Shown piece by piece: positions 13,310 to 32,742 of a stretch of 64,000 nucleotides of DNA (positions are counted from its first letter, which is position 1; the number at the start of each line of letters is the position of its first letter). The DNA is taken from contig NZ_CP062983.1 in the NCBI RefSeq assembly GCF_015500095.1, positions 2,666,001 through 2,730,000 of the forward strand. Direction: 5' to 3'. A program made the position numbers and the translations under genes. This stretch comes from Phototrophicus methaneseepsis. GTDB lineage: Bacteria > Chloroflexota > Anaerolineae > Aggregatilineales > Phototrophicaceae. The notes under the pieces are model-generated. The model was not told where the DNA came from and did not search any database. It was given only the letters and a program-made list of their open reading frames with translations.

Positions 13310-15412
13310 TTATAAAGCGCTGATGATCTGTCCCATCCACGTTAAGATGTTCGAAGCTGGTAAATTGGCAGGTGGGATGAGATACAGCGGCTGCTCTATA
13401 GACTCAATATCGCCAATCGTGTCCTGGCTGGTCAGGGTAACGATGGGTAAATCCGCATAATCTGCATTGGCTCGGATACGCTGAATGGTATCCAGGCCTT
13501 GCCGATCAGACATATCCAGGTCCACAAAGACAAAATGCGGCTGATGTAGTTCCAGCATTTCTAGCCCTTCTGTTTTGCTGAAAGCATCAATAACGTGGAA
13601 GCGCCGGATCGGGTGATCCAGCATCCGGTTAAACAGGCGGACGAAATCTTCGTCTTCCGCGATAATCAGCACTTTGTCGATATTAGCCCCGTAGCGGCGC
13701 ATGACATTCCACAGAGCCTCACGTTCCAACGGCTTGTATAAATAGCCGCCAATCGCGAACTGGTCACTCCTCGGTGTGGCAAAGCAAAGCGTCATAAGCA
13801 GAACATTGGTTGTATCAAATATCGTTTGCAGGTCCTCGGGCGGCGGGACTTCGATGCTGCCCTGATCAAAGATGATGGCATCGGGTAGGGTCTTGCCAAC
13901 TACCGAGAGCGTCTCTTCCAGGTCCTGGACCACATGAATCTGGCAGTCGCTTAAATACTGTGAGATGAGAGAAATTGTAAAGTGGCTTTGTGTGACGACG
14001 ATGACTGTGTGAGACCGTGTGACGCGCGTCGAAAATGGTGCTGTTTCCTTTGGTTTAGAAATGCTAGAAACGCTGGATTCAAAGCCTTTATAAGGAATGA
14101 AAAAACGGATGGTTGTGCCGCCGTTGACTGTGCTTTCAACATCAATTTGCCCATTGTGCAGTTCAATAAATTGTTTGCTGATCGCCAGCCCAAGCCCCGT
14201 GACGCGCTGCTGATGAATATCCGATTGGTGGAAAGCCTCAAAGATCGTTTTCACCTGTTCCTGGGACATGCCAACGCCCGTATCCTGAATAATAAATTGG
14301 ATGCCATCTTCCAGGCATTTTGTCGTAAAGTTGATGCTGCCACTATCCGTAAAGCGGATGGCATTGTTCAATAAATTCAAGATGATTTGCCTGAATCGTG
14401 TTTGATCCAGCCACATATCCGGCATATGGTCTTCTAGTTGGAGGTTCATCTCAAGCGACTTTGCATCCGCCAGGCTGCGGATGGTATCCACGGCTTGGAT
14501 AATGAGTTGTTCAGGGTTGCTCTTGGTGGGCTTGATAGAAAGCTGCGCGGCTTGTATCCGTGCCATATCCAGCACATCATTGATTAGGCCCTGTAGGTGT
14601 GTGGCGTTGCGATGAATGATGCTAAGGTCGCGTACATAGGCAAAGGGCAATTCTGCGCCATAATGTTCCGGCGAATCGATCATCAAGCTCGTGAAGCCAA
14701 CGATCAGGTTAAGCGGGGTTCGTAATTCATGGCTGACGTTCTGGGCAAATTCTTGTTTCAGCCGTGTTGCTTCGTAAGCTCGGTCTAATGCTGCGGCAAG
14801 GCGCTTGTTGATGTGGCTTACACGGGTGCGCGCTTCGTCTAGCTGCTTGGAGACGCGTCGCAGCTCTGCTTCTCGGTCCCTCGCGTGGACCTGATCTTGA
14901 TACACCGATGTGAAGGCGGACCAGATCGTCAGGAGTGTATCGTTGAGATGCAGCGGGAGCACCGTCTGATAGATGACCACAAGATAAAGCACAAACAGGC
15001 TGGAAATACTGATGCGGCTGTAAAGGGTGATAATGCCAGCCAGCAGCAGCACGCTTGCAACGACGGTAATGCGGTGTTCGTTGTTGTAAACGAGTTGGTG
15101 CGTCACAACGGTTGGCAGAATAAACAGAAAGAGGGCGGCTTCAGTATTAAAGGCGATTGCGGCACAGCTTACGGCGGCGATACCACCCCAGATGAGGCTT
15201 GCCACAGCGATAGAATAATATTTGGAGCGGGCAAAAGATGCGATTAAGGTGGCCCCGGCTAGCAAACCGATACTGAGCCAATGCATGAGCGTGCTGGTAT
15301 GTGTCGGGTAGAGCAACCAGAACAGCCAGCAATAGATGACAAAGCCATTTAAGATCGTAATTAGATGGATCGTACTTTTATTTGAAACAGCAAGTTCAGA
15401 ATCTAAGTTCAA
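13310..15412 (-). CDS. Hybrid sensor histidine kinase with two receiver-like domains
   Basis: A 700-residue membrane kinase. About six hydrophobic helices (residues 15-170) are followed by a coiled coil (ARDREAELRRVSKQLDEARTRV). The H-box is QEFAQNVSHELRTPLNLIVGF. The ATPase domain has the N-box NLLNNAIRFT, G1 DTGVGMS and GLGLAISKQFIE. Two receiver-like domains follow. The first (about 475-590) lacks the usual acidic pair and has FDQGS at the acceptor position. The second (about 595-700) keeps IIAEDED and an acceptor Asp in FVFVDLDMSDRQG, but the conserved C-terminal Lys-Pro is replaced by LIPPAN. The start is a TTG at 15412 with no nearby ATG. It converges on the HTH/receiver gene at 12064-13296. 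The sensed signal is unknown. Confidence 0.88.
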   Translation of the reverse strand: MNLDSELAVSNKSTIHLITILNGFVIYCWLFWLLYPTHTSTLMHWLSIGLLAGATLIASFARSKYYSIAVASLIWGGIAAVSCAAIAFNTEAALFLFILPTVVTHQLVYNNEHRITVVASVLLLAGIITLYSRISISSLFVLYLVVIYQTVLPLHLNDTLLTIWSAFTSVYQDQVHARDREAELRRVSKQLDEARTRVSHINKRLAAALDRAYEATRLKQEFAQNVSHELRTPLNLIVGFTSLMIDSPEHYGAELPFAYVRDLSIIHRNATHLQGLINDVLDMARIQAAQLSIKPTKSNPEQLIIQAVDTIRSLADAKSLEMNLQLEDHMPDMWLDQTRFRQIILNLLNNAIRFTDSGSINFTTKCLEDGIQFIIQDTGVGMSQEQVKTIFEAFHQSDIHQQRVTGLGLAISKQFIELHNGQIDVESTVNGGTTIRFFIPYKGFESSVSSISKPKETAPFSTRVTRSHTVIVVTQSHFTISLISQYLSDCQIHVVQDLEETLSVVGKTLPDAIIFDQGSIEVPPPEDLQTIFDTTNVLLMTLCFATPRSDQFAIGGYLYKPLEREALWNVMRRYGANIDKVLIIAEDEDFVRLFNRMLDHPIRRFHVIDAFSKTEGLEMLELHQPHFVFVDLDMSDRQGLDTIQRIRANADYADLPIVTLTSQDTIGDIESIEQPLYLIPPANLPASNILTWMGQIISAL

Positions 15413-23027: not shown

Positions 23028-25202
23028 TTATCGGACTTCATCTGCTGTCGTGAGTGCCTGATTGAGGTGCCTTGCCGCGATATAAGCAAAGGTCATCCCG
23101 ACGCTGAGTGTGCCGCCACCCCCTGGATAGCTCCCTGCGAATGGGCTGGCGGCCGTGTTCCCTGCCGCATACAGGCCGCCTAGGGGCTTGCCCCAGACAT
23201 CTAAAACCTGACCATTTGCATTGATCTGTAAGCCGCCGCTGGTCCCCAGTGCCCCAGGCCAAATTGATGCGCCATAGAAGGGCGGCTCAATGAGAGGGCC
23301 CAGGCATGGGTTGATGAGGTCATCGCGCGTTGGATCGCCGCCTGTTTGCCGGTCAAAGGCTGATTCGCCTCGTCTGAAGTCCGGGTCGTGGCCTGTTCGC
23401 GCATATTCATTGAATACCTCCACAGTCTCAACGAGGTTGCACGGATTGATATTGAGCATATTCGCCAGTTCTTCTAAGGTATCGGCGCAGACAAACCAAG
23501 TTGAAGGCTTCTGTCCTTCTTTGGCGCGTGTCTGATTCGTGCGGCGATAATGATCTGCATCGGTAATCACAAAGGCCGGGATATTGCTATATTCGAACCG
23601 CCCGGAATCGAAGGCATAGAAAGCGCGCGTTACCAGATCATAAGGCCCGGCTTCGTTCATGATGCGGTGTCCGGTGCGATTTACCACAAGGGCCCCTGGT
23701 TTGCCCAGTTCCGGTGCTAGCGCTGGATACGCCGATTTTGTCTCTCGGTCGAAGTAAACAGGCCAGCCCCATCGTTCATTCATATGGCCCAGGCCAGCCC
23801 CGACCGCCATACCCATGATCTGACCGTCGCCCGTGTTGCCTTCTGCGGCACTGCTGTAGTAAAGCGGTCCTCTTAGGAAGCTCTCGACCATGGCTTTATT
23901 ATGATCAAAACCGCCGCTGGCGAGCACGACGCCACCTCGGGCCTTGATATTCGTCGGGATGCCATCAACCTCTGCGACCACACCTGTCACGATGCCGTTA
24001 TGTTCTATGAGGCGCTTCGCCGGACTATTGAGCCATACCTGGGCGCCGCGCGCCAGCGCAGCTTCATAGATAGTACTCAGCAAGAATCTGCCATGAAGGA
24101 CTGTTCCGTTGCGGGTTGGGCTAATGCCGCGCCCGTAATCGACCCCACCAGCGAACTCTGGATAGTAGTCCTGGAAGTTGGGCATAAAAGTCCAGTCGAT
24201 GCCGATTTCACGAAACAAATCAATGACTTCATGGCAGTGATTAACGAAAGCATAAGCCAATTCATGGTTGATGCCGCCTGAAGTGATGATATTCAGATAT
24301 GTGAGGGCATCCTCCGTAGAATCCTGAATGCCGGCTTCTTTCATACAATAGTTGTTTGGCACCCATAAACCGCCCCCAGAAAAAGCCGTTGTGCCGCCCA
24401 CAGTCGATTGTTTTTCCAGGACGAGCACTCGCATCCCCAGATCAGCCGCTTTCAAAGCGGCAACCATGCCGATCCCAGAGCCGACGACGACCATGTCAAA
24501 CTCTTCGTCCCAGGCGATATGTGCGTTATGTTCAGGCGCTTTTTCTTCCGGTGTAGGATCAACGAGGCCGCGTTGGATCGCATAGCGGATGATGTCTGCG
24601 CGGTGTTCGAGGTTGAGCTTTTCCCCGATGCGCTGGCGATAGGTATCCACCGTGCGCGGACTGATTGAAAAATGGGTGCTGATTTCACCGCGTGATTGAC
24701 CCAGTGCTGTCCGGATCAAGACTTCGTATTCACGGTCGCTCAGTTCTTCTAAGGGGTCTGCCTTCAGTGTATCGGGTGATTGGCGTGCACTCAGGATGAC
24801 GCTCAGGGCTTCCATCGAAAAGACTGCTTCACCTGCCGCAGCACGCCGGATAGCCGTGACAAAATCTTGCTGACTGGTATCTGATGGAATTAGACCCGAT
24901 GCCCCGGCTTTACTGATGTGCAAGATCGTATCGCCATTGGTTTGATCCCCATAGACGAGAACGCGAGTATGCGGGTTGTGTCGGCAGATATGCGCTATGG
25001 GATAGTAAATGCTCATGACAGAAGAGGGCAATTTAATGACAACCACGTCGATGCGCTTTTTGTCGACTGCTTCAATCAGGGAAAAACTTCTGTCTGTTTC
25101 ATAAACAATATCAATATCGCTCTCGGTTTGCAGCCATGTGCGCAAGCCAGCACGCGATAAAGGTTGAGGATCCGCTAGGGCAATCCGAATATTCTGTTTC
25201 AT
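23028..25202 (-). CDS. Fusion regulator: pseudo-receiver, LuxR-type HTH and KstD-like flavoprotein
   Basis: One uninterrupted frame of 724 residues. Residues 5-125 have the fold pattern of a NarL-type receiver, but the phospho-acceptor Asp is replaced by Lys (VVVIKLPSS, residue 57), the acidic pair is reduced to ALADPQP, and the conserved Lys near the end is lost (GASGLIPSD), so phosphorylation is unlikely. Residues 153-212 are a LuxR/NarL HTH (LSDREYEVL, ISPRTVDTYRQRIGEKL). After a short Pro/Glu linker, residues 235-720 form a complete FAD-dependent oxidoreductase: GSGIGMVAA dinucleotide fold, VLEKQSTVGGTTAFSGGG, WVPNNY, DYYPEFAGG, GGFDHN, NTGDGQIM and the C-terminal YPGGGGT. It is a clear paralogue of the exported flavoprotein at 26351, which lies divergent to it. 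The Tyr-Pro-Gly-x-Gly motif and the absence of a fumarate-reductase His-Pro-Thr point to the 3-ketosteroid-dehydrogenase type. No internal start codon with a ribosome-binding site lies at the junction, so a true fusion is likely. Role as a substrate- or redox-sensing transcription factor is inferred. Confidence 0.9.
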   Translation of the reverse strand: MKQNIRIALADPQPLSRAGLRTWLQTESDIDIVYETDRSFSLIEAVDKKRIDVVVIKLPSSVMSIYYPIAHICRHNPHTRVLVYGDQTNGDTILHISKAGASGLIPSDTSQQDFVTAIRRAAAGEAVFSMEALSVILSARQSPDTLKADPLEELSDREYEVLIRTALGQSRGEISTHFSISPRTVDTYRQRIGEKLNLEHRADIIRYAIQRGLVDPTPEEKAPEHNAHIAWDEEFDMVVVGSGIGMVAALKAADLGMRVLVLEKQSTVGGTTAFSGGGLWVPNNYCMKEAGIQDSTEDALTYLNIITSGGINHELAYAFVNHCHEVIDLFREIGIDWTFMPNFQDYYPEFAGGVDYGRGISPTRNGTVLHGRFLLSTIYEAALARGAQVWLNSPAKRLIEHNGIVTGVVAEVDGIPTNIKARGGVVLASGGFDHNKAMVESFLRGPLYYSSAAEGNTGDGQIMGMAVGAGLGHMNERWGWPVYFDRETKSAYPALAPELGKPGALVVNRTGHRIMNEAGPYDLVTRAFYAFDSGRFEYSNIPAFVITDADHYRRTNQTRAKEGQKPSTWFVCADTLEELANMLNINPCNLVETVEVFNEYARTGHDPDFRRGESAFDRQTGGDPTRDDLINPCLGPLIEPPFYGASIWPGALGTSGGLQINANGQVLDVWGKPLGGLYAAGNTAASPFAGSYPGGGGTLSVGMTFAYIAARHLNQALTTADEVR

Positions 25203-25218
25203 AGAGGACTATGTCCCT

Positions 25219-25238
25219 GTTACTTTCACTTAAGTAAC
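25219..25238. promoter_or_regulatory. Inverted repeat in the leader of the fusion regulator
   Basis: GTTACTT and AAGTAAC flank a 6-base spacer, 17 bases upstream of the regulator's start codon and downstream of its predicted TATAAT (25261-25266, minus strand). Could be an autoregulatory operator or a hairpin near the ribosome-binding region. Confidence 0.4.
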
Positions 25239-25532
25239 TTCTAAGAGTTTTTATAGCTTCATTATACAAATGCTGCTTAATAAATCTTTGTTTCTTTCGA
25301 CACATTGTTTTGATGACGTGCGTTTATATCGGGCTTTATCTCGACTTCTATGTCTTTAAATAGGGCTATTTTTTCGGCCATTCTGTTATTTAGCGTCATT
25401 TTCAACAGTTTAATTTGTTTTATGGTCAATTAAGCGCGGGTTGTATGTATTTTACGGACAGGCCATACCGTAGTTCTCGTATCTCATATGCAGCATAACC
25501 TCGATACACAAGTAAGTGCTTGGATAGTATCT

Positions 25533-25556
25533 TATTTGTGTAAATTTACACAAATA
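25533..25556. promoter_or_regulatory. Perfect 24-nt palindrome upstream of the cytochrome operon
   Basis: The half-site TATTTGTGTAAA is followed directly by its exact complement. Its centre is about 70 bases upstream of the predicted start of the cytochrome operon, the distance at which class I activators bind. It resembles a CRP/FNR-like TGTGT-N6-ACACA site, but the divergently encoded LuxR-type fusion regulator is an equally good candidate to bind it. Binding is inferred. Confidence 0.65.
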
Positions 25557-25623: not shown

Positions 25624-26295
25624 ATGAGTGAACAAGAAATATCACGACCGAGCCGCTTTCGCATCCTAAGACGTATCTTCACGTTCATTTTTCTGTTTAT
25701 TGGGCTGGTTGTACTGATCGGCGGAATCGGTGTTGTGGGAGTTTGGAGCCATTTCTGGGGGTTTAACATTGGCAACCCCTCTTCAGATTCCTGCGCGAGC
25801 TGCCATGTGATGGAGACCTACGAGAGCTCCCTGAATCAGCCGGAAATGCTCGTTAGTCTGCACAGTGATAAGGAAGTCGGCTGTGTGGATTGTCACTCTA
25901 TGAGCTTTGAACAACAACTCCATGAAACAGTGGCTTACCTGCAAGACGATTATACCCAGCCTTTTACACGGGCTGAATACGGCATGGAGACCTGTTTCCA
26001 ATGCCATGAACACGGTAGCTACGACCAGATCGCCTGGCGCACAACAGACCTTGGCGTGACGGATGGTAAGACGAAGGGCCACGAAGCCAACCCGCATCAG
26101 TCGCCACATTATGATGACCTGGAATGCAATACCTGCCATCGTATGCACCGTGAATCCGTTTTGTTTTGTTCAGAGTGTCACGCATTTGAATTTAGAATCC
26201 CGGTCCCTGTTCCTTCAGATTCTACAGATTCCACAGATTCTACCGACGAACCAGCCGATGATTCTGTCGTCGAAGATTCTACCGAAACACCCTGA
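25624..26295 (+). CDS. Membrane-anchored pentaheme c-type cytochrome (NapC/NrfH-like)
   Basis: A 223-residue protein with one N-terminal membrane helix (residues 17-42, IFTFIFLFIGLVVLIGGIGVVGV) after a basic cytoplasmic tail, as in quinol-oxidising NapC/NirT/NrfH proteins. Five CxxCH heme sites follow: CASCH (57), CVDCH (87), CFQCH (124), CNTCH (168) and CSECH (182). Many free histidines (HYDD, HRMH, HEH) could supply distal ligands. The C-terminal 30 residues are a low-complexity acidic Ser/Thr/Asp tail encoded by a short tandem DNA repeat around 26213-26245. It is first in an operon with an exported flavoprotein, a nonaheme cytochrome and a cytochrome b, so it probably carries electrons between the quinone pool and the flavoprotein. 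Direction of flow is not shown by sequence. Confidence 0.9.
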   Translation: MSEQEISRPSRFRILRRIFTFIFLFIGLVVLIGGIGVVGVWSHFWGFNIGNPSSDSCASCHVMETYESSLNQPEMLVSLHSDKEVGCVDCHSMSFEQQLHETVAYLQDDYTQPFTRAEYGMETCFQCHEHGSYDQIAWRTTDLGVTDGKTKGHEANPHQSPHYDDLECNTCHRMHRESVLFCSECHAFEFRIPVPVPSDSTDSTDSTDEPADDSVVEDSTETP

Positions 26296-26350: not shown

Positions 26351-27943
26351 ATGAGTCAAAAAAGTCAACTTTCTCGCCGCGATTTTCTTCGCAATGCTGC
26401 TGTTGCTGGTGGCGCAGCTGCAACGGGGTTCGCTGGCTTCGGCGTACAGTCTGTTCAGGCCCAGGATGTCGAATGGACCTATGAAGCTGATGTGGTCGTG
26501 CTTGGCAGTGGTACAGGCCAGCTCGCCGCGATCCGCGCTGCGGAACTGGGTTTGTCCGCCATTTTGCTAGAAAAAGCACAATTTGGTGGTGGCACGACAG
26601 GCATTTCCGGTGGTGGTATCTGGGTCCCCAACAACTACCGTATGCAAGAAGTCGGCATTCCGGATTCCCGCGAAAATGCCATTGAATATTTGAAGCATGC
26701 AACCTTTGGCCAGAGCAGCGACCTGCTGATCGAAACCTACGTTGATAACGCCAATGTCATGGCTGAATACCTGCGTTCCATTGGTATCGACTGGACACTG
26801 ACCCCTGCCTTCAATGACTATTATCCTGAATTCCCCGGTGGCATCCCAGAAGGCCGTGCCTTGATGCCAATCTCAACCATTGAAGGTGCTACCAATGGTG
26901 GTGCACTTGCTCGTATGCTGACCCAGGCTGGTGAAGAACGTGGCGTTGAATATCACTATTCAACTGCGGGCAAACGCCTGATCCAGGATGAAAGCGGCAA
27001 AGTTATCGGTGTCGTGGCAGAAGCTGACGGCCAGGAAATCAACGTTCACGCGCTGAAGGGCGTTGTGATTGCTACAGGTGGCTTCGACCACAATGCTGAG
27101 ATGGTCGCTGCCTTCTTGCGTGGCCCCGTCTACTATCCGAGTGCGGTAGCTACCAACACAGGCGATGGTCAGATTATGGCTATGGCGATTGGTGCCAACC
27201 TGCGCAATATGAACGAAATCTTTGGCTGGCCCGTTTACTACACAGAAGAACTTGGTTACGGCAGCCCGGCTCTAACATTGGAACTCGGCAAGCCGGGTAC
27301 CATCGTTGTGAACCGCTTCGGCAAGCGCTTCTTCGATGAAGCTAGTGCTTACGACCCGGCAGCACGTACCTTCTACGATTATGACAATGGCACCCATGAA
27401 TACGAGAATATCCCGGCCTATGCCATCTTCGATTCCAGCCATCGCAGCCGTTACAGCATGGCAGGCATCCCCGCAGGTGCAGAAGTTCCTGAATGGGTTG
27501 TCACAGCAGATACCATCGAAGGTATTGCAGAAGCCCTGGGCATTGATGCTGCTGGCCTGACTGCAACGGTGGAAAGCTTCAATGAAAATGCGGCTCAGGG
27601 TGTTGATCCTGAGTTCAAGCGTGGTGTCTCGGCCTTTGATCAACTGACAGGCGGCGACCGTACCCGCACCGATGTTGCGAATCCTTGCCTCGCCCCCGTC
27701 GCAGAAGCACCCTTCTATGCGATCCCTGTTTGGCCGGGCGCGCTGGGCACCTGTGGTGGTATCCAGATCAATGAACATGGGCAGGCACTGAACGTTTGGG
27801 GTGAGACAATCCCAGGTCTGTACGCAGCGGGTAACGCCAGCGGCAGCGTGATGGGTGCTGGTTACCCTGGTGGTGGTAGCACGATTGGCGCAGGTCTGAC
27901 GTTCTCATTCCTGGCAGCCAACCATATGGCAGAACAAGCATAA
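26351..27943 (+). CDS. Tat-exported FAD oxidoreductase, 3-ketosteroid-dehydrogenase type
   Basis: A 530-residue flavoprotein with a twin-arginine signal (SRRDFLRN, hydrophobic segment, cleavage near SVQAQD), hence folded with FAD before export. The FAD-binding fold starts at VVVLGSGTGQLAAIRAAELG. The family blocks are GGTTGISGGGIWVPNNY, IGIDWTLTPAFNDYYPEFPGG, IATGGFDHN, NTGDGQIM, ELGKPG, WPGALGTCGGIQIN and GLYAAGN, ending in GYPGGGSTIG. The WVPNN, DYYPE and Tyr-Pro-Gly-x-Gly blocks are those of 3-ketosteroid delta-1-dehydrogenases. The His-Pro-Thr and Arg pattern of fumarate reductases is absent. No heme site is fused to it, so partner cytochromes in the operon probably exchange its electrons. 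AGGAG precedes the ATG. Substrate may be a steroid or another cyclic ketone; this is not determined by the sequence. The regulator at 23028 contains its paralogue. Confidence 0.88.
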   Translation: MSQKSQLSRRDFLRNAAVAGGAAATGFAGFGVQSVQAQDVEWTYEADVVVLGSGTGQLAAIRAAELGLSAILLEKAQFGGGTTGISGGGIWVPNNYRMQEVGIPDSRENAIEYLKHATFGQSSDLLIETYVDNANVMAEYLRSIGIDWTLTPAFNDYYPEFPGGIPEGRALMPISTIEGATNGGALARMLTQAGEERGVEYHYSTAGKRLIQDESGKVIGVVAEADGQEINVHALKGVVIATGGFDHNAEMVAAFLRGPVYYPSAVATNTGDGQIMAMAIGANLRNMNEIFGWPVYYTEELGYGSPALTLELGKPGTIVVNRFGKRFFDEASAYDPAARTFYDYDNGTHEYENIPAYAIFDSSHRSRYSMAGIPAGAEVPEWVVTADTIEGIAEALGIDAAGLTATVESFNENAAQGVDPEFKRGVSAFDQLTGGDRTRTDVANPCLAPVAEAPFYAIPVWPGALGTCGGIQINEHGQALNVWGETIPGLYAAGNASGSVMGAGYPGGGSTIGAGLTFSFLAANHMAEQA

Positions 27944-28057: not shown

Positions 28058-29662
28058 ATGAAGAAGTCTAAAATATCCCTATTCATGTTGCTAGTTGTTA
28101 TGAGTCTTATTGGTATTGATGGGGGTTGGAACCTTCTTACACTTCGGGCTCAGGAAAATACGACGGTAACGCCCGCTCCTCCCACCCCTTATGTTTCGAT
28201 CTTTGACTTAACGGAAGGGCCCAGTGCGACAGAGCTGGCTCCCACACAACCGGACCCAACAGGGGAGACTGAAGTATCCCCCACGACGGCAGTCAATCAG
28301 CCGGATGCGACATCAGCCGCACCCGCGCGTATTCCGTCCATCTTCGATCCACCTTCCGCCAATACAGATCAGTCAAACACAGGCCAGACGGCCACTGAGC
28401 AGGCAAATCCTGCGCAACCCACGCGTATTCCGTCAATTTTCGACCCGCCTTCTGAATCCGGGTCATCAGGACAGCCCTCTGCGGAGCCTACGCGCATTCA
28501 ATCGATTTTCGATTCTTCAACAGGTACTGGTGGGAGCACGACAGGGGGCACGACAGACCCGGCCCAACCGACGCCTTATGTCTCCGTATTCGACATGATG
28601 CAGTCGTCCGTCATTCGCTTTGAGGGCGAAGAAAGGCCGGATAAAGAATATTGCTTGAGCTGCCATGCCAACCCATATTTACAATTGGCGCTGCCTTCCG
28701 GCGAGATTATCTCCGTCACAGTTGATGAAGAAGAATATGCGGAATCGGTACATGGTCAACATGGCACTGAGGGTTACCGCTGTATTCGCTGCCATGACGG
28801 TATGAACGAATATCCGCATGAAGCGGTCACAGCGACTACCGCTCGTGAACTCCAGATAGAGTATTCTGCGAGCTGCGTGGAATGCCACACGGATATGTAC
28901 GACGATACCCTGGATGGCGTTCATTTTGATCTGTTGGCGAATGGCAATGAGAATGCTGCTGTCTGTGCGGATTGCCATACAGGGCATGGGGTGCAACGTC
29001 TGAATGATGAGACTACCGATGAGCCGCTGCCGGAATCTGGCATTACGAGCGTTGAAATGTGCACGACCTGCCATGCTGATGTCTTTGAACATTATGCAAG
29101 CAGTGTCCATGGCGAAGCTTTACTAGCAGGCAATAATGATATGCCGACCTGCGCCGACTGTCATGGCATCCATAATACAGAGGGGCCAACGAACGATTCT
29201 AGCTTCCGCCTATTCTCGCCTCAGACGTGTGCCAAGTGCCACTCTGATGAGCAGTTGATGGCGAAATACGACGTCAGCACCGATGTTTTCGATACTTATG
29301 TATCGGATTTCCACGGCACGACGGTCATGCTCTTCCAGAAAACGGCGGCTGATCAAGACTTTAACGCACCTGTTTGTGTCGATTGCCATGGCGTACATGA
29401 TATTTCGCCCATTGATGCAGCCGACAGCCCGGTCCTGCGCGATAACCTTATTACGACATGTCGCCGCTGTCACCCGGATGCGTCATCAGATTTCCCGGCG
29501 GCCTGGTTAGGGCACTATCCGCCCACCCTTGAGCGTACGCCGCTGGTTGCCCTGGCGCAGCTTTTCTACAACATCTTTATCCCGGTCGTCATCGGCGGGC
29601 TGGTGTTGTTCGTGATAACAGATATTTACCGGCGATTGAGCAATCGTCGTGAGGAGCACTAA
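28058..29662 (+). CDS. Nonaheme c-type cytochrome with repeat-rich N-terminus and C-terminal anchor
   Basis: A 534-residue exported protein. A Sec signal peptide (residues 1-32, MKKSKISLFMLLVVMSLIG) is followed by about 150 residues of Pro/Thr/Ser/Gln-rich, probably disordered chain carrying five copies of a short motif: PYVSIFD (~44), RIPSIFD (~91), RIPSIFD (~123), RIQSIFD (~146) and PYVSVFD (~173). The heme domain has nine CxxCH sites: CLSCH, CIRCH, CVECH, CADCH, CTTCH, CADCH, CAKCH, CVDCH and CRRCH. A membrane helix near the C-terminus (FYNIFIPVVIGGLVLFVITDIY) and a basic tail anchor it to the outside face. The next gene starts three bases after its stop, and that gene encodes a cytochrome b, so the two probably form a membrane complex. 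The repeats may tether partner proteins; this is speculative. Confidence 0.88.
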   Translation: MKKSKISLFMLLVVMSLIGIDGGWNLLTLRAQENTTVTPAPPTPYVSIFDLTEGPSATELAPTQPDPTGETEVSPTTAVNQPDATSAAPARIPSIFDPPSANTDQSNTGQTATEQANPAQPTRIPSIFDPPSESGSSGQPSAEPTRIQSIFDSSTGTGGSTTGGTTDPAQPTPYVSVFDMMQSSVIRFEGEERPDKEYCLSCHANPYLQLALPSGEIISVTVDEEEYAESVHGQHGTEGYRCIRCHDGMNEYPHEAVTATTARELQIEYSASCVECHTDMYDDTLDGVHFDLLANGNENAAVCADCHTGHGVQRLNDETTDEPLPESGITSVEMCTTCHADVFEHYASSVHGEALLAGNNDMPTCADCHGIHNTEGPTNDSSFRLFSPQTCAKCHSDEQLMAKYDVSTDVFDTYVSDFHGTTVMLFQKTAADQDFNAPVCVDCHGVHDISPIDAADSPVLRDNLITTCRRCHPDASSDFPAAWLGHYPPTLERTPLVALAQLFYNIFIPVVIGGLVLFVITDIYRRLSNRREEH

Positions 29663-29665
29663 CCC

Positions 29666-30805
29666 ATGGAATCCAGACGTAGTTACCTACGCTTTCCTTT
29701 AGCTTATCGCATTGAACACTGGATTATCGTGCTGACTTTTACGACGCTCGCAATCACAGGTTTGATACAAAAATTTGCCATCACGGATATTGCGGTCTGG
29801 ATTGTGGGGCTGCTCGGTGGCATTGAAACGGTGCGCATCATTCATCGCATCGCGGCAGTCGTGCTGATCCTGGAATCGATCTATCATGTGGGGTTGGTCG
29901 GTTACAACTTCTTTGTACGTCGTTACAAAATGTCCTTTCTGCCGACGTTGAAAGACGCGACAAACGCGATCCAGGCCATTCAGTACAATCTCCGGCTGCG
30001 TAATGATCGCCCGCAGCAGGGCCGCTATACCTTTGATGAGAAGTTCGAATATTTCGGCATCGTATGGGGCACCCTGGTGATGATCGTAACGGGTTTTATC
30101 TTGTGGAACCCCATTGCGGCGACGTCCATTCTCCCTGGTGAATTCGTGCCTGCTGCGAAGGTCTTCCATAGTGGGGAGGCTCTGCTCGCTGTGCTGGCGA
30201 TTCTCGTCTGGCACATGTATCACGTTCATATTCGCAAGTTCAACAAGAGCATGTTTACGGGGCAGCTCTCCGAAGAGGAAATGGAAGAAGAACATCCGCT
30301 GGAGTTGGCTGAGTTGAAGCAAGCTGCCCCGGAGGCCCCATCTGTTGAAACGGCTCGTAAGCGCAGAATTTACCTCATGGTTTATGTGCCGATTACGTTG
30401 GTATCGCTCGCTATCGTGTATGTTTTCGTCACTTTTGAGCAGACAGCTATTGATACGGTGGCCCCGCTGGAATCGGTGGAAGTCTATTCACCATTGGAAG
30501 ACGCAGAGCTACAGCCTGTCTCGTTCAATTCACCTATGACGAGTTGGGAAGATGGCATCGGTGAGTTTTTCGATGTGCGGTGTTCTTTCTGCCATGGTAA
30601 GTCAACGGCAATATCTGACCTGGACCTGACGACCTATGATTCCGCTTTGCTCGGTGGGTCCTCTGTGCCGGCTATCGTCCCTAATGATCCTGAGAACAGC
30701 GGCATTATCATTCAGAACAAAGATCGTGATCACTTCGTGGCCTTAACGGATGAAGAGTTTGAAAAGTTGACTGCCTGGGTTGAGGCAGGGGCACCACAAA
30801 ATTAA
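29666..30805 (+). CDS. Cytochrome b (FdhI/b561-like) fused to a monoheme cytochrome c domain
   Basis: A 379-residue membrane protein. The first 215 residues hold four membrane helices of the formate-dehydrogenase-gamma/hydrogenase cytochrome b family (RIEHWIIVLTFTTLAITGLIQ, IIHRIAAVVLILESIYHVGLVG, FGIVWGTLVMIVTGFILW, FHSGEALLAVLAILVWHMYHVHI), with histidines suited to bind two b hemes. A charged cytoplasmic loop rich in Glu follows. A fifth membrane helix (IYLMVYVPITLVSLAIVYVFVTF) leads to an external domain with one heme c site, CSFCHG, and the usual late EKLTAWVEAGAP helix. GAGGAG lies before the ATG. It is the last gene of the redox operon and is a likely quinone/quinol module that passes electrons to or from the multiheme cytochromes. 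Confidence 0.9.
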   Translation: MESRRSYLRFPLAYRIEHWIIVLTFTTLAITGLIQKFAITDIAVWIVGLLGGIETVRIIHRIAAVVLILESIYHVGLVGYNFFVRRYKMSFLPTLKDATNAIQAIQYNLRLRNDRPQQGRYTFDEKFEYFGIVWGTLVMIVTGFILWNPIAATSILPGEFVPAAKVFHSGEALLAVLAILVWHMYHVHIRKFNKSMFTGQLSEEEMEEEHPLELAELKQAAPEAPSVETARKRRIYLMVYVPITLVSLAIVYVFVTFEQTAIDTVAPLESVEVYSPLEDAELQPVSFNSPMTSWEDGIGEFFDVRCSFCHGKSTAISDLDLTTYDSALLGGSSVPAIVPNDPENSGIIIQNKDRDHFVALTDEEFEKLTAWVEAGAPQN

Positions 30806-30893
30806 CCTAGCGGCGTGTGCAGTATCTTCGTCAGGCCAGATGATACTTCGTAAATCAGTGACGGGTGCGACACATTGACCCCTCGCATCTGTT

Positions 30894-30930
30894 TAAAAAG
30901 ACCGACAATTGTAATACGTCGGTCTTTTTA
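30894..30930 (+). terminator. Intrinsic terminator after the redox operon
   Basis: A 13-bp perfect stem (TAAAAAGACCGAC with its complement at 30918-30930) and an 11-base loop. It is bidirectional and sits between the cytochrome b gene and the convergent decayed gene at 30938. Confidence 0.92.
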
Positions 30931-30937
30931 ATTTCTG

Positions 30938-31420
30938 TCATAGGGTGCAGCGCGCTACAGATAAGTGCTTATTGCCATGATTGCCCAAAGAAAATCGGTT
31001 TGTGACTGCCCACATATCGCCTTGAGCGTCGCCTAGTTCGATGGAGCAATATCTGGCGTGGCTTGCCGGGAATGCCCACATCTTTTCGCCAGTTTCGCCA
31101 ATGGGCATGTGTTCCTGTACCTTGCCATCAACGATTAAACGCAACACATCGCCTTTGTGGGCGTCCTGCCATGTGACCATGATCGTAGCGGCCTCATCTG
31201 GAATCAGATCCCCAACCATGGCTTTTTTGCCCGTTTCTGTTTGGGCTGTGAACACTAATTCAGGCCCTGCGCTGACGTAAGAGTGCCCTTGACGAATCGC
31301 ATCTAAAATGCCTTTTTCGCTCAATTCTTCGGCATAGACCACATTTCAACATTAATCAAGCCGATACCACACAGTGCGCTCGTTGTGCCTGCGGGGTGCT
31401 TCAGCAATGAAGATAAGTGT
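30938..31420 (-). pseudogene. Decayed PHP-domain metallohydrolase (CehA/McbA-like)
   Basis: The frame from 31342 to 30938 encodes only the C-terminal part of a CehA/McbA-type protein: VVYAEELSEKGILDAIRQGHSYVSAGPELVF followed by its beta-sandwich tail. Immediately upstream, in another frame, comes a piece of the PHP domain, reading HPAGTTSALCGIGLINVEMW, after which the frame runs into a stop. The normal 60 or more residues between these two blocks are absent, so an internal deletion with a frame change has joined them near 31345. Metal-ligand motifs from the N-terminal half are not found further upstream. The left boundary of the remnant is approximate. It is probably not functional. Confidence 0.6.
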
Positions 31421-31529
31421 CAGGCAACGTGTTCTAGGCCCAGTATTGCAAAACGATGGAGATTGTATCGTCTCAAATCACAGACGCATGAGATAGCGAG
31501 AGCGGTTGCTCTCAAAAAAGACGATTCTC

Positions 31530-31577
31530 TTGACAACCTATTATTTATGGCATAATCTTATGACAGCGCTGTCATAA
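31530..31577 (+). promoter_or_regulatory. Promoter and operator of the lacI-type gene at 31614
   Basis: TTGACA (31530-31535), a 17-base spacer and TAATCT (31553-31558) precede a perfect 20-nt palindrome at 31558-31577 whose half-site is TTATGACAGC. The palindrome touches the -10 and covers the predicted start, so binding would repress. The inner 18 bases recur exactly at 32725-32742, upstream of the transporter operon. Autoregulation by the LacI protein is inferred. Confidence 0.8.
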
Positions 31578-31613
31578 TTTACTTTTTATAGACTTTCTTG
31601 TGAGCAGCTTATT

Positions 31614-32642
31614 TTGGAATCTAAAACCGATAACCTTATTGGCAAAACCATCACGCTTGATGACGTCGCAAAGGAAGCGGGTGTCTCTCGCAAGACTGTT
31701 TCGCGCGTGATTAATGCGAATGGCTATGTGAGCGAAGCAACCCGGCAGCGTGTTGAGGCGGTTGTTCGGAAACTGGGTTATCGCCCCAATCTTGTCGCGC
31801 GTACACTCGCATCTGCCCGCAGCACCGTCATCGGCCTGATGATCCCTGGCATCACCAATCGATACTTCAGCCAGGTGATTGCAGGTGTTGAATCTATTGC
31901 GCAGGAAAATCAGTACAGCGTCTTACTACTGAATACTTACGGCGATTTTGCTCGTGAGCGCGATGCGATCCGTCTGCTGGAAGAGCACCGCGTTGATGGT
32001 CTTGTTTATAATACCCCGACCTTACCTGTTGCAGAACTCAGGCAGTTATTACCACGCCAGAAGGCGGTGGTGATAATTGGTCATGATCCTATTGAGGGCA
32101 TGGCAGGTACAGTAAATGTCGATGTCTATTCTGCCATGATTCAGGCAGTCGAGCATCTGGTGGATGTGGGGCGTCGTCGCATCGCTTACGTCAAACCAGG
32201 CATTGATGAACGCTACCCCCATCGTAAGCGCCTTGAAGGTTTAAGGGAGGCTTTTCGTCGGCTTAAGCTGGACGTGCCACCCTTGATGGTCGAAGCTGTG
32301 GGGGGGAGTATTGAAGATACCAGCAATCAAGTTGAGGCCTGGCTTAGCACAAAGCCGGATGTTGATGCCATCATCTGCTACAACGACGAAGCTGCTGTTG
32401 CAACAATAGATGCATGTGACCGGCTAGGAATCAAAATCCCAGATGACATCGCTATTGTTGGCTTTGATGACATCAGCCTATCCAGAATTCAACGCATTTC
32501 GCTGACGACATTTAGAATACCGCGATACGAAGTCGGCGTTGCTGCCGCTCGTATTTTGTTTGAGCAGATTCATTCGACAGGGGACACATCAGAAGTCATC
32601 CTTCAGTCCGCTTTTGTAAAGCGAAACAGTACCCCTGCATAG
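31614..32642 (+). CDS. LacI-family transcriptional regulator
   Basis: A 342-residue regulator with a canonical HTH (LDDVAKEAGVSRKTVSRVINANGYVS) and hinge (YRPNLVARTLASARSTVIGLMIP), then a sugar-binding core (NRYFSQVIAGVESIAQENQYSVLL, HRVDGLVYN, RRRIAYVKPG, DAIICYNDEAAVATIDACDRLG, IAIVGFDDISLSRIQRISLTTF). The frame begins at a TTG at 31614 with no strong ribosome-binding site; the first in-frame ATG would remove the HTH. Two identical operators, one at its own promoter and one before the sugar transporter at 32806, make that operon its likely target. The inducer is unknown. Confidence 0.93.
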   Translation: MESKTDNLIGKTITLDDVAKEAGVSRKTVSRVINANGYVSEATRQRVEAVVRKLGYRPNLVARTLASARSTVIGLMIPGITNRYFSQVIAGVESIAQENQYSVLLLNTYGDFARERDAIRLLEEHRVDGLVYNTPTLPVAELRQLLPRQKAVVIIGHDPIEGMAGTVNVDVYSAMIQAVEHLVDVGRRRIAYVKPGIDERYPHRKRLEGLREAFRRLKLDVPPLMVEAVGGSIEDTSNQVEAWLSTKPDVDAIICYNDEAAVATIDACDRLGIKIPDDIAIVGFDDISLSRIQRISLTTFRIPRYEVGVAAARILFEQIHSTGDTSEVILQSAFVKRNSTPA

Positions 32643-32724: not shown

Positions 32725-32742
32725 TATGACAGCGCTGTCATA
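32725..32742 (+). promoter_or_regulatory. Second LacI-type operator, before the third sugar-transporter operon
   Basis: A perfect 18-nt palindrome with half-site TATGACAGC, identical to the core of the palindrome at 31558-31577. It lies 64 bases before the binding-protein ATG. An isolated AGGAGGTGA followed by ATG-GTG-TAA lies at 32688-32707. Confidence 0.82.

Follow-up and report, generated by a model that had tools for sequence, protein, structure and literature searches.

We found that a single gene of the deep-sea bacterium Phototrophicus methaneseepsis joins a receiver, a LuxR-type HTH and a complete flavoprotein. From its sequence we favour, with some reserve, reading the product as a flavoenzyme-fused response regulator that in this species has probably been reduced to a one-component sensor, responding to substrate or redox state through its copy of the enzyme. 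The window analysed here is the whole 64,000-nucleotide stretch G000:C1:2666001-2730000, G000 being the source genome, which is a single contig of 5,631,885 bases.

Domains of the fused protein

The fused gene and its parts, and the divergent operon beside it, are as follows.

23028..25202, (−) strand: fused regulator gene, 724 aa, receiver, HTH and flavoprotein in that order (open frame, Pfam, fused homologues in five other genomes)
24837..25190, (−) strand: receiver domain, residues 5-122, with Lys57 at the phosphoacceptor position, codon 25032-25034 (Pfam, residue comparison, folded in model)
24564..24755, (−) strand: LuxR/NarL-type HTH, residues 150-213, core T184-R191 unchanged, K183 changed to Arg (Pfam, alignment)
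24507..24563, (−) strand: linker, residues 214-232, shorter than in relatives, with low model confidence at 216-227 (alignment, model)
23058..24506, (−) strand: KstD-like FAD domain, residues 233-715, with Y346, Y521, Y692 and G696 (Pfam, alignment, Foldseek)
25624..26295, (+) strand: pentaheme cytochrome with five CxxCH motifs, first gene of the divergent operon (open frame, Pfam; remote cytcCgr1 match, 44.9 bits against a cut-off of 340)
26351..27943, (+) strand: flavoprotein with a twin-arginine signal, paralogue of the fused FAD domain (open frame, Pfam, alignment)
28058..29662, (+) strand: nine-heme cytochrome (open frame, Pfam)
29666..30805, (+) strand: cytochrome b561-type membrane protein with a C-terminal heme c motif (open frame, Pfam)

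The fused frame is open for 724 codons from its ATG. Pfam matched Response_reg at residues 7-118 (29.7 bits, slightly below the cut-off of 30.2), GerE at residues 153-208 (48.5 bits against a cut-off of 23.5), which is the LuxR-type HTH of NarL/FixJ regulators, and FAD_binding_2 at residues 236-699, with the full profile covered (240.6 bits). The original prediction of a receiver, a LuxR HTH and a full FAD oxidoreductase in one frame is borne out by these data and by fused homologues elsewhere. As the same junction occurs in five further genomes, the fusion is not an assembly artefact; chance read-through was rejected likewise.

In an AlphaFold2 model (mean pLDDT 82.0, pTM 0.66), the receiver, HTH and flavin parts were all folded, the receiver mostly at pLDDT 77-94. 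The low-confidence stretches were residues 141-147, 216-227 and 694-698, the last of which takes in G696. A family profile searched against PDB sequences matched 51 chains at E <= 1e-20, the response regulators within residues 2-209 and the flavoproteins within 203-721, and none of these chains bridged the two halves.

The C-terminal part has 50% identity to the exported flavoprotein at 26351, in agreement with the proposal that the enzyme half is its paralogue. The FAD part had also been described as full and intact, and alignment located both the GxGxxG motif and the Tyr-Pro-Gly-Gly-Gly block. Chains of KstD and of cyclohexanone dehydrogenase made up the 11 best Foldseek matches to the model (28-33% identity; TM, normalised by target length, 0.75-0.82). 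The catalytic residues of KstD1, given as Tyr119, Tyr318, Tyr487 and Gly491 in the part of PMC5348764 cited here, map to Y346, Y521, Y692 and G696 in alignments read by eye; all four are identical in the 13 proteins compared. The window protein has the FAD_binding_2 fold and the Tyr/Tyr/Tyr/Gly active site of KstD-type flavoenzymes. Its score for the curated KstD-type family was below the cut-off (best 405.3 bits against 789), and the flavin part lay under the cut-offs of all 25 NCBIfam families among the matches listed. Fixed differences between the six fused and the six exported proteins are confined to positions 531 (F/Y), 655 (S/C) and 700 (S/G). The fused protein would be expected to bind FAD; as its flavin domain and the exported enzyme agree in their catalytic residues, it could sense the substrate of that enzyme.

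Retention of the four KstD residues in all six known fusions would also fit a trigger enzyme, with a flavin domain that is catalytically active in the cytoplasm and reduces its FAD on turnover, the protein thereby alternating between a catalytic and a DNA-binding state. PutA offers a precedent, its flavin redox state controlling its location according to the cited part of PMC5293562. Against this, we identified neither a gene for a soluble second partner nor one for a membrane-binding part, and we consider such a role unlikely.

The fused gene had been placed divergently from the flavoprotein gene at 26351. It does face a divergent operon, but the adjoining gene is that of the pentaheme cytochrome at 25624, with the flavoprotein second in the operon.

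Receiver loss and the kinase-coupled relatives

The family search covered sixty relatives together with the source genome, a scan of genome contigs and 154 genomes of the order. Six of the 154 carry the fusion: G000, G001 (= L040), G005, G024, G473 and G478 (= G429 = L039). Within the order, matches to the exported flavoprotein (E <= 1e-125) were confined to these six carriers, so that the suggested association of fusion and exported paralogue held in every case. The draws from the class, the phylum and the class of G685 scored two candidates per genome, compared with seven in the order scan, and left out known carriers, so that distant or independent fusions could be missed; full-length fusion matches came only from G000 and G001 among the matches listed for 396 genomes of the class, and only from G000 among 400 genomes of the phylum. 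There was no fusion in 393 genomes drawn from the class of G685, nor a match in the genome behind L041, which is by itself a weak indication. A plasmid match (one of 349 records, 97% of the query at 30.9% identity) was taken as chance, the annotation naming betA and an FAD-binding protein.

Two unfused flavoprotein relatives surfaced in the genome draws (G685 and G1164). Both lie near contig ends, none of the ORFs listed nearby has heme motifs, and a HAMP-type sensor protein is encoded ∼7 kb from the G685 flavoprotein. Unfused relatives in another Chloroflexota class, at L086 10565-12085 and L084 8122-9765, have nearby ORFs without heme motifs; the L086 frame starts near the FAD domain and no signal peptide is visible in it.

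In G001, G024, G473 and G478, the genes run in the order pentaheme cytochrome, flavoprotein, nine-heme cytochrome, cytochrome b/c, histidine kinase and fused regulator; G005 has the same operon genes split over two contigs. In all five relatives, the kinase stop lies within a 4-base overlap with the fused start. The G024 kinase, the one of the five scanned with Pfam, comprises HAMP, GAF, HisKA_3 and HATPase_c. By comparison, the window has the fused gene as a separate, divergent unit and lacks the kinase.

Compared with eight relatives whose receivers are intact, five of them fused and three unfused, the receiver encoded in the window keeps D11 but has Pro for D12, Lys for D57, Gly for T85 and Ser for K107. 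The replacement of the phosphoacceptor Asp by Lys and the loss of the conserved C-terminal Lys were thus correctly predicted. The five other fusions have complete Response_reg domains (86.9-98.0 bits in Pfam; residues compared), with the phosphoacceptor Asp and the conserved Thr and Lys of NarL/FixJ regulators that the window protein lacks (K57, G85, S107). A cognate kinase, also characteristic of NarL/FixJ regulators, is present in all five, and none was found near the window operon. A dead receiver had been taken as part of the architecture; this did not hold and was rejected as a family trait. With an intact receiver in five of its six members, each preceded by an overlapping kinase gene, the family is one of response regulators with an attached flavoenzyme; the probable one-component state came later, through loss in this species. 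Receiver loss is therefore a derived state of P. methaneseepsis rather than the nature of the fused family.

No relic of the kinase was found after the cytochrome b gene, where operon-kinase queries gave no match in 30600-31700 at E <= 10. Elsewhere in the window the queries matched at 14093-14389 (26%) and 1260-1802 (24%). A membrane kinase with C-terminal receiver-like parts lies at 13310-15412 (−), ∼8 kb from the fused gene, and matches one operon kinase only in part, at 26%. The closest G000 relative of the operon kinase (41% identity; C1:2052835-2054448, at ∼2.05 Mb) is the only one of its kind in that genome and groups in the tree with matching kinases of G001 and G045 (100/100). It adjoins its own intact unfused regulator and two Tat proteins of the Dehalogenase family, a label that for this paralogous system comes from Pfam in G000 alone. 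As a member of a second system with its own regulator, it was rejected as the missing partner. Paralogous kinases with unfused regulators were seen beside reductive-dehalogenase-family Tat proteins at L048 9808-17565 (G000:C1 about 2052808-2060565) and also at L049 and L050.

Divergence differed between the three domains. Identity of the window protein to the other fusions is 32-34% in the receiver, 52-56% in the HTH and 56-59% in the FAD domain, compared with 62-83%, 75-86% and 62-72%, respectively, among the others. In the receiver-HTH tree, its end branch measures 2.42, and those of the other fusions 0.14-0.31. In columns that do not vary among the other five fusions, the window protein differs at 35/58 (60%) in the receiver, 14/41 (34%) in the HTH and 36/235 (15%) in the FAD domain; leaving out each other member in turn gave 4-12%, 0-7% and 4-5%. 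By these comparisons of sequence, the whole window protein evolves faster, with the loss concentrated in the receiver. The roughly three-fold faster FAD domain (15% against 4-5%) indicates some general relaxation and counts against the one-component reading.

Such relaxation would be expected if the regulator were simply decaying, with the kinase lost, the protein drifting, DNA binding constitutive or nil and the flavin domain a passive element for stability or dimerisation. Faster change in all three domains and a promoter without the family operator (see below) favour this account. It has to contend with 724 open codons, with intact FAD-binding and catalytic residues and with the columns that do not vary among the 11 remaining fused and exported proteins, where the window fusion is altered at 9/152 and the six controls examined at 1-8 of 144-151. 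We regard decay as improbable.

One branch separated the fused from the exported FAD domains in each of three trees (89/98, 95/95 and 94/93; recovered every time in 100% of 200 bootstrap trees). The split is compatible with a single duplication and a single fusion that predate the divergence of the six genomes, with the root not firmly placed. The window's exported flavoprotein (26351-27943) groups with G024, G473 and G005 instead of the same-genus relative G001. In AU tests of groups named after the tree was seen, grouping of this protein with G001 and G478 was rejected (p 0.0018), and grouping of the fused domain with G024, G005 and G473 was compatible (p 0.17). The cytochrome/flavoprotein operon may have moved between lineages.

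Candidate operators in the divergent region

A palindrome 5′ of the pentaheme gene was seen in three relatives, from which the 19-bp pattern TGTMRGGRAATTCCYKACA was derived. In the held-out G478, it occurred at the same place with 1 mismatch, as the sole genome-wide match up to 2 mismatches. In the held-out G473, it was again at the same place, with 0 mismatches, and was the sole match in a search of the 20-kb locus that allowed up to 4 mismatches. For G001, G005 and G024, the operon site was the best genome-wide match, the remaining matches carrying 2 mismatches. The palindrome is thus common to the operons of all five relatives, built on three and recovered in two, and in each it is followed by a half-site CYGACAGACA. 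The unfused paralogous system has a similar palindrome (1-2 mismatches) at its locus in the three genomes examined.

Two sites were noted in the window promoter region.

25442..25460, no strand: possible decayed family operator TGTATGTATTTTACGGACA, weak (matrix, mismatch count)
25533..25556, no strand: 24-bp perfect palindrome TATTTGTGTAAATTTACACAAATA, candidate operator (repeat search, shuffles, genome search)

A live family operator was rejected, the best match in the window promoter having 5 mismatches, a level equalled in 61 of 1000 shuffles. The site at 25442-25460 came second when the 64-kb window was scored by matrix, its score of 9.45 comparing with 25.9-30.7 for the relatives' sites, and may be a weak remnant of the old operator. 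The palindrome at 25533-25556 had been singled out beforehand, and it proved to be beyond chance: none of 1000 shuffles reached it, the longest shuffled palindrome being 16, and its 20-base core is unique in the genome within 3 mismatches. It sits in the intergenic region common to the fused gene and the operon. The other binding site put forward, at 25219-25238, is a repeat with 7-bp arms. A G429:C58 match to the 18-base core of the 24-bp palindrome, with 1 mismatch, was set aside, its neighbourhood being uninformative.

The HTH core T184-R191 is unchanged, although the candidate operator differs from the family operator. The link between palindrome and protein is therefore tentative, which counts against the one-component reading; DNA binding by the fused protein, like the direction of regulation, is putative. 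The same mismatch between operator and HTH would be explained if the palindrome served another regulator, for example of the CRP/FNR kind, with the fused protein acting elsewhere or on the weak remnant of the old site. Its TGTG-N8-CACA form, which we take to be CRP-like, points the same way. However, the site is the only one of its kind in the genome within 3 mismatches, unlike those of a global regulator, and the intergenic region is shared by the fused gene, making this explanation rather doubtful.

Near-identical palindromes TTATGACAGCGCTGTCATAA (and its 18-base core) at 31558-31577 and 32725-32742 flank a LacI-type gene (31614-32642) and are likely its operators. In another part of the genome, ORFs of a repeated peptide (FQSPCGEVTFCR-like) at L052 17428-18415 (G000:C1 about 2893428-2894415) look like a translated CRISPR-type repeat array.

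Proposed mechanism and known systems

We read the protein as one of a small set of response regulators that carry, C-terminal to the HTH, a cytoplasmic version of the flavoenzyme of their operon. The kinase gene overlapping the fused start in the five relatives makes two-input logic likely there; the inputs would be phosphorylation and the occupancy or redox state of the flavin domain. In the window protein, a substrate or product would act through ligand occupancy or the FAD redox state. The state of the flavin domain would alter binding of an HTH dimer in the divergent region, where 25533-25556 is the best candidate, and the altered binding would set expression of the cytochrome/flavoprotein operon. 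A possible history, which we offer tentatively, is that of a two-component regulator caught after conversion: the enzyme copy was added as a second input, the kinase, phosphorylation site and old operator were then dropped, and the enzyme copy alone now senses substrate and redox state on a new operator. Ligand-binding atypical receivers are known, and the window receiver is retained and still folds in the model, but it is by far the least conserved part of the protein, and it is very improbable that the receiver itself is the ligand sensor with the flavin domain secondary.

Several known systems resemble the fused regulator. Receiver-GerE order and, in the five relatives, an adjacent kinase gene are shared with NarL/FixJ regulators and their HisKA_3 kinases; the fused family adds a C-terminal flavoenzyme of ∼490 residues, and the window member is without phosphoacceptor or adjacent kinase. 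The FAD domain resembles 3-ketosteroid delta1-dehydrogenase and cyclohexanone dehydrogenase in fold and in the four KstD catalytic residues, but has no Tat signal and is fused to a regulator. MocR/GabR proteins are likewise transcription factors with a cofactor-dependent enzyme fold as effector domain. As outlined in the sources drawn on, they have a GntR-type wHTH and an aminotransferase-type PLP fold and no receiver, whereas the window protein has a NarL-type HTH and an FAD/KstD fold that is a paralogue of its operon's own enzyme; neither a GntR wHTH nor a PLP-dependent fold type I domain is among its Pfam matches. Trifunctional PutA, in the cited part of its description, also combines a flavoenzyme with a DNA-binding domain and governs the genes of its own pathway, but through a ribbon-helix-helix and proline dehydrogenase, the regulator being the enzyme itself (PMC5293562). 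In the present case, the respiratory work falls to a separate, exported enzyme, and neither an RHH domain nor proline dehydrogenase is among the Pfam matches of the window protein. In Eggerthella lenta, LuxR-type HTH regulators adjoin genes of flavin-dependent enzymes, including Cgr2; in the cited part of that account they have a transmembrane N-terminus of 10-12 helices and no fused enzyme domain (PMC9734109). The window N-terminus has a receiver fold instead (Pfam, model).

An enzyme fold as the sensor of a regulator is therefore a principle already known. In the literature searched, with subscription journals mostly outside it, we found no FAD enzyme joined to a response regulator or to a regulator of the LuxR type. 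Nor did we find there a precedent for what the sequences suggest, a response regulator bearing a paralogue of the flavoenzyme from its own operon and a species in which the phosphorylation half has gone.

The family provides a natural before-and-after comparison of the change from a two-component to a one-component system, with the five kinase-coupled relatives as the likely ancestral state. The design would be a simple one, a spare copy of an enzyme sensing the compound on which the enzyme acts, so that the specificities of regulator and enzyme match. As sensor and enzyme would have their active site in common, the regulator could serve as a lead to the substrate on which the exported flavoprotein/multiheme cytochrome system acts.
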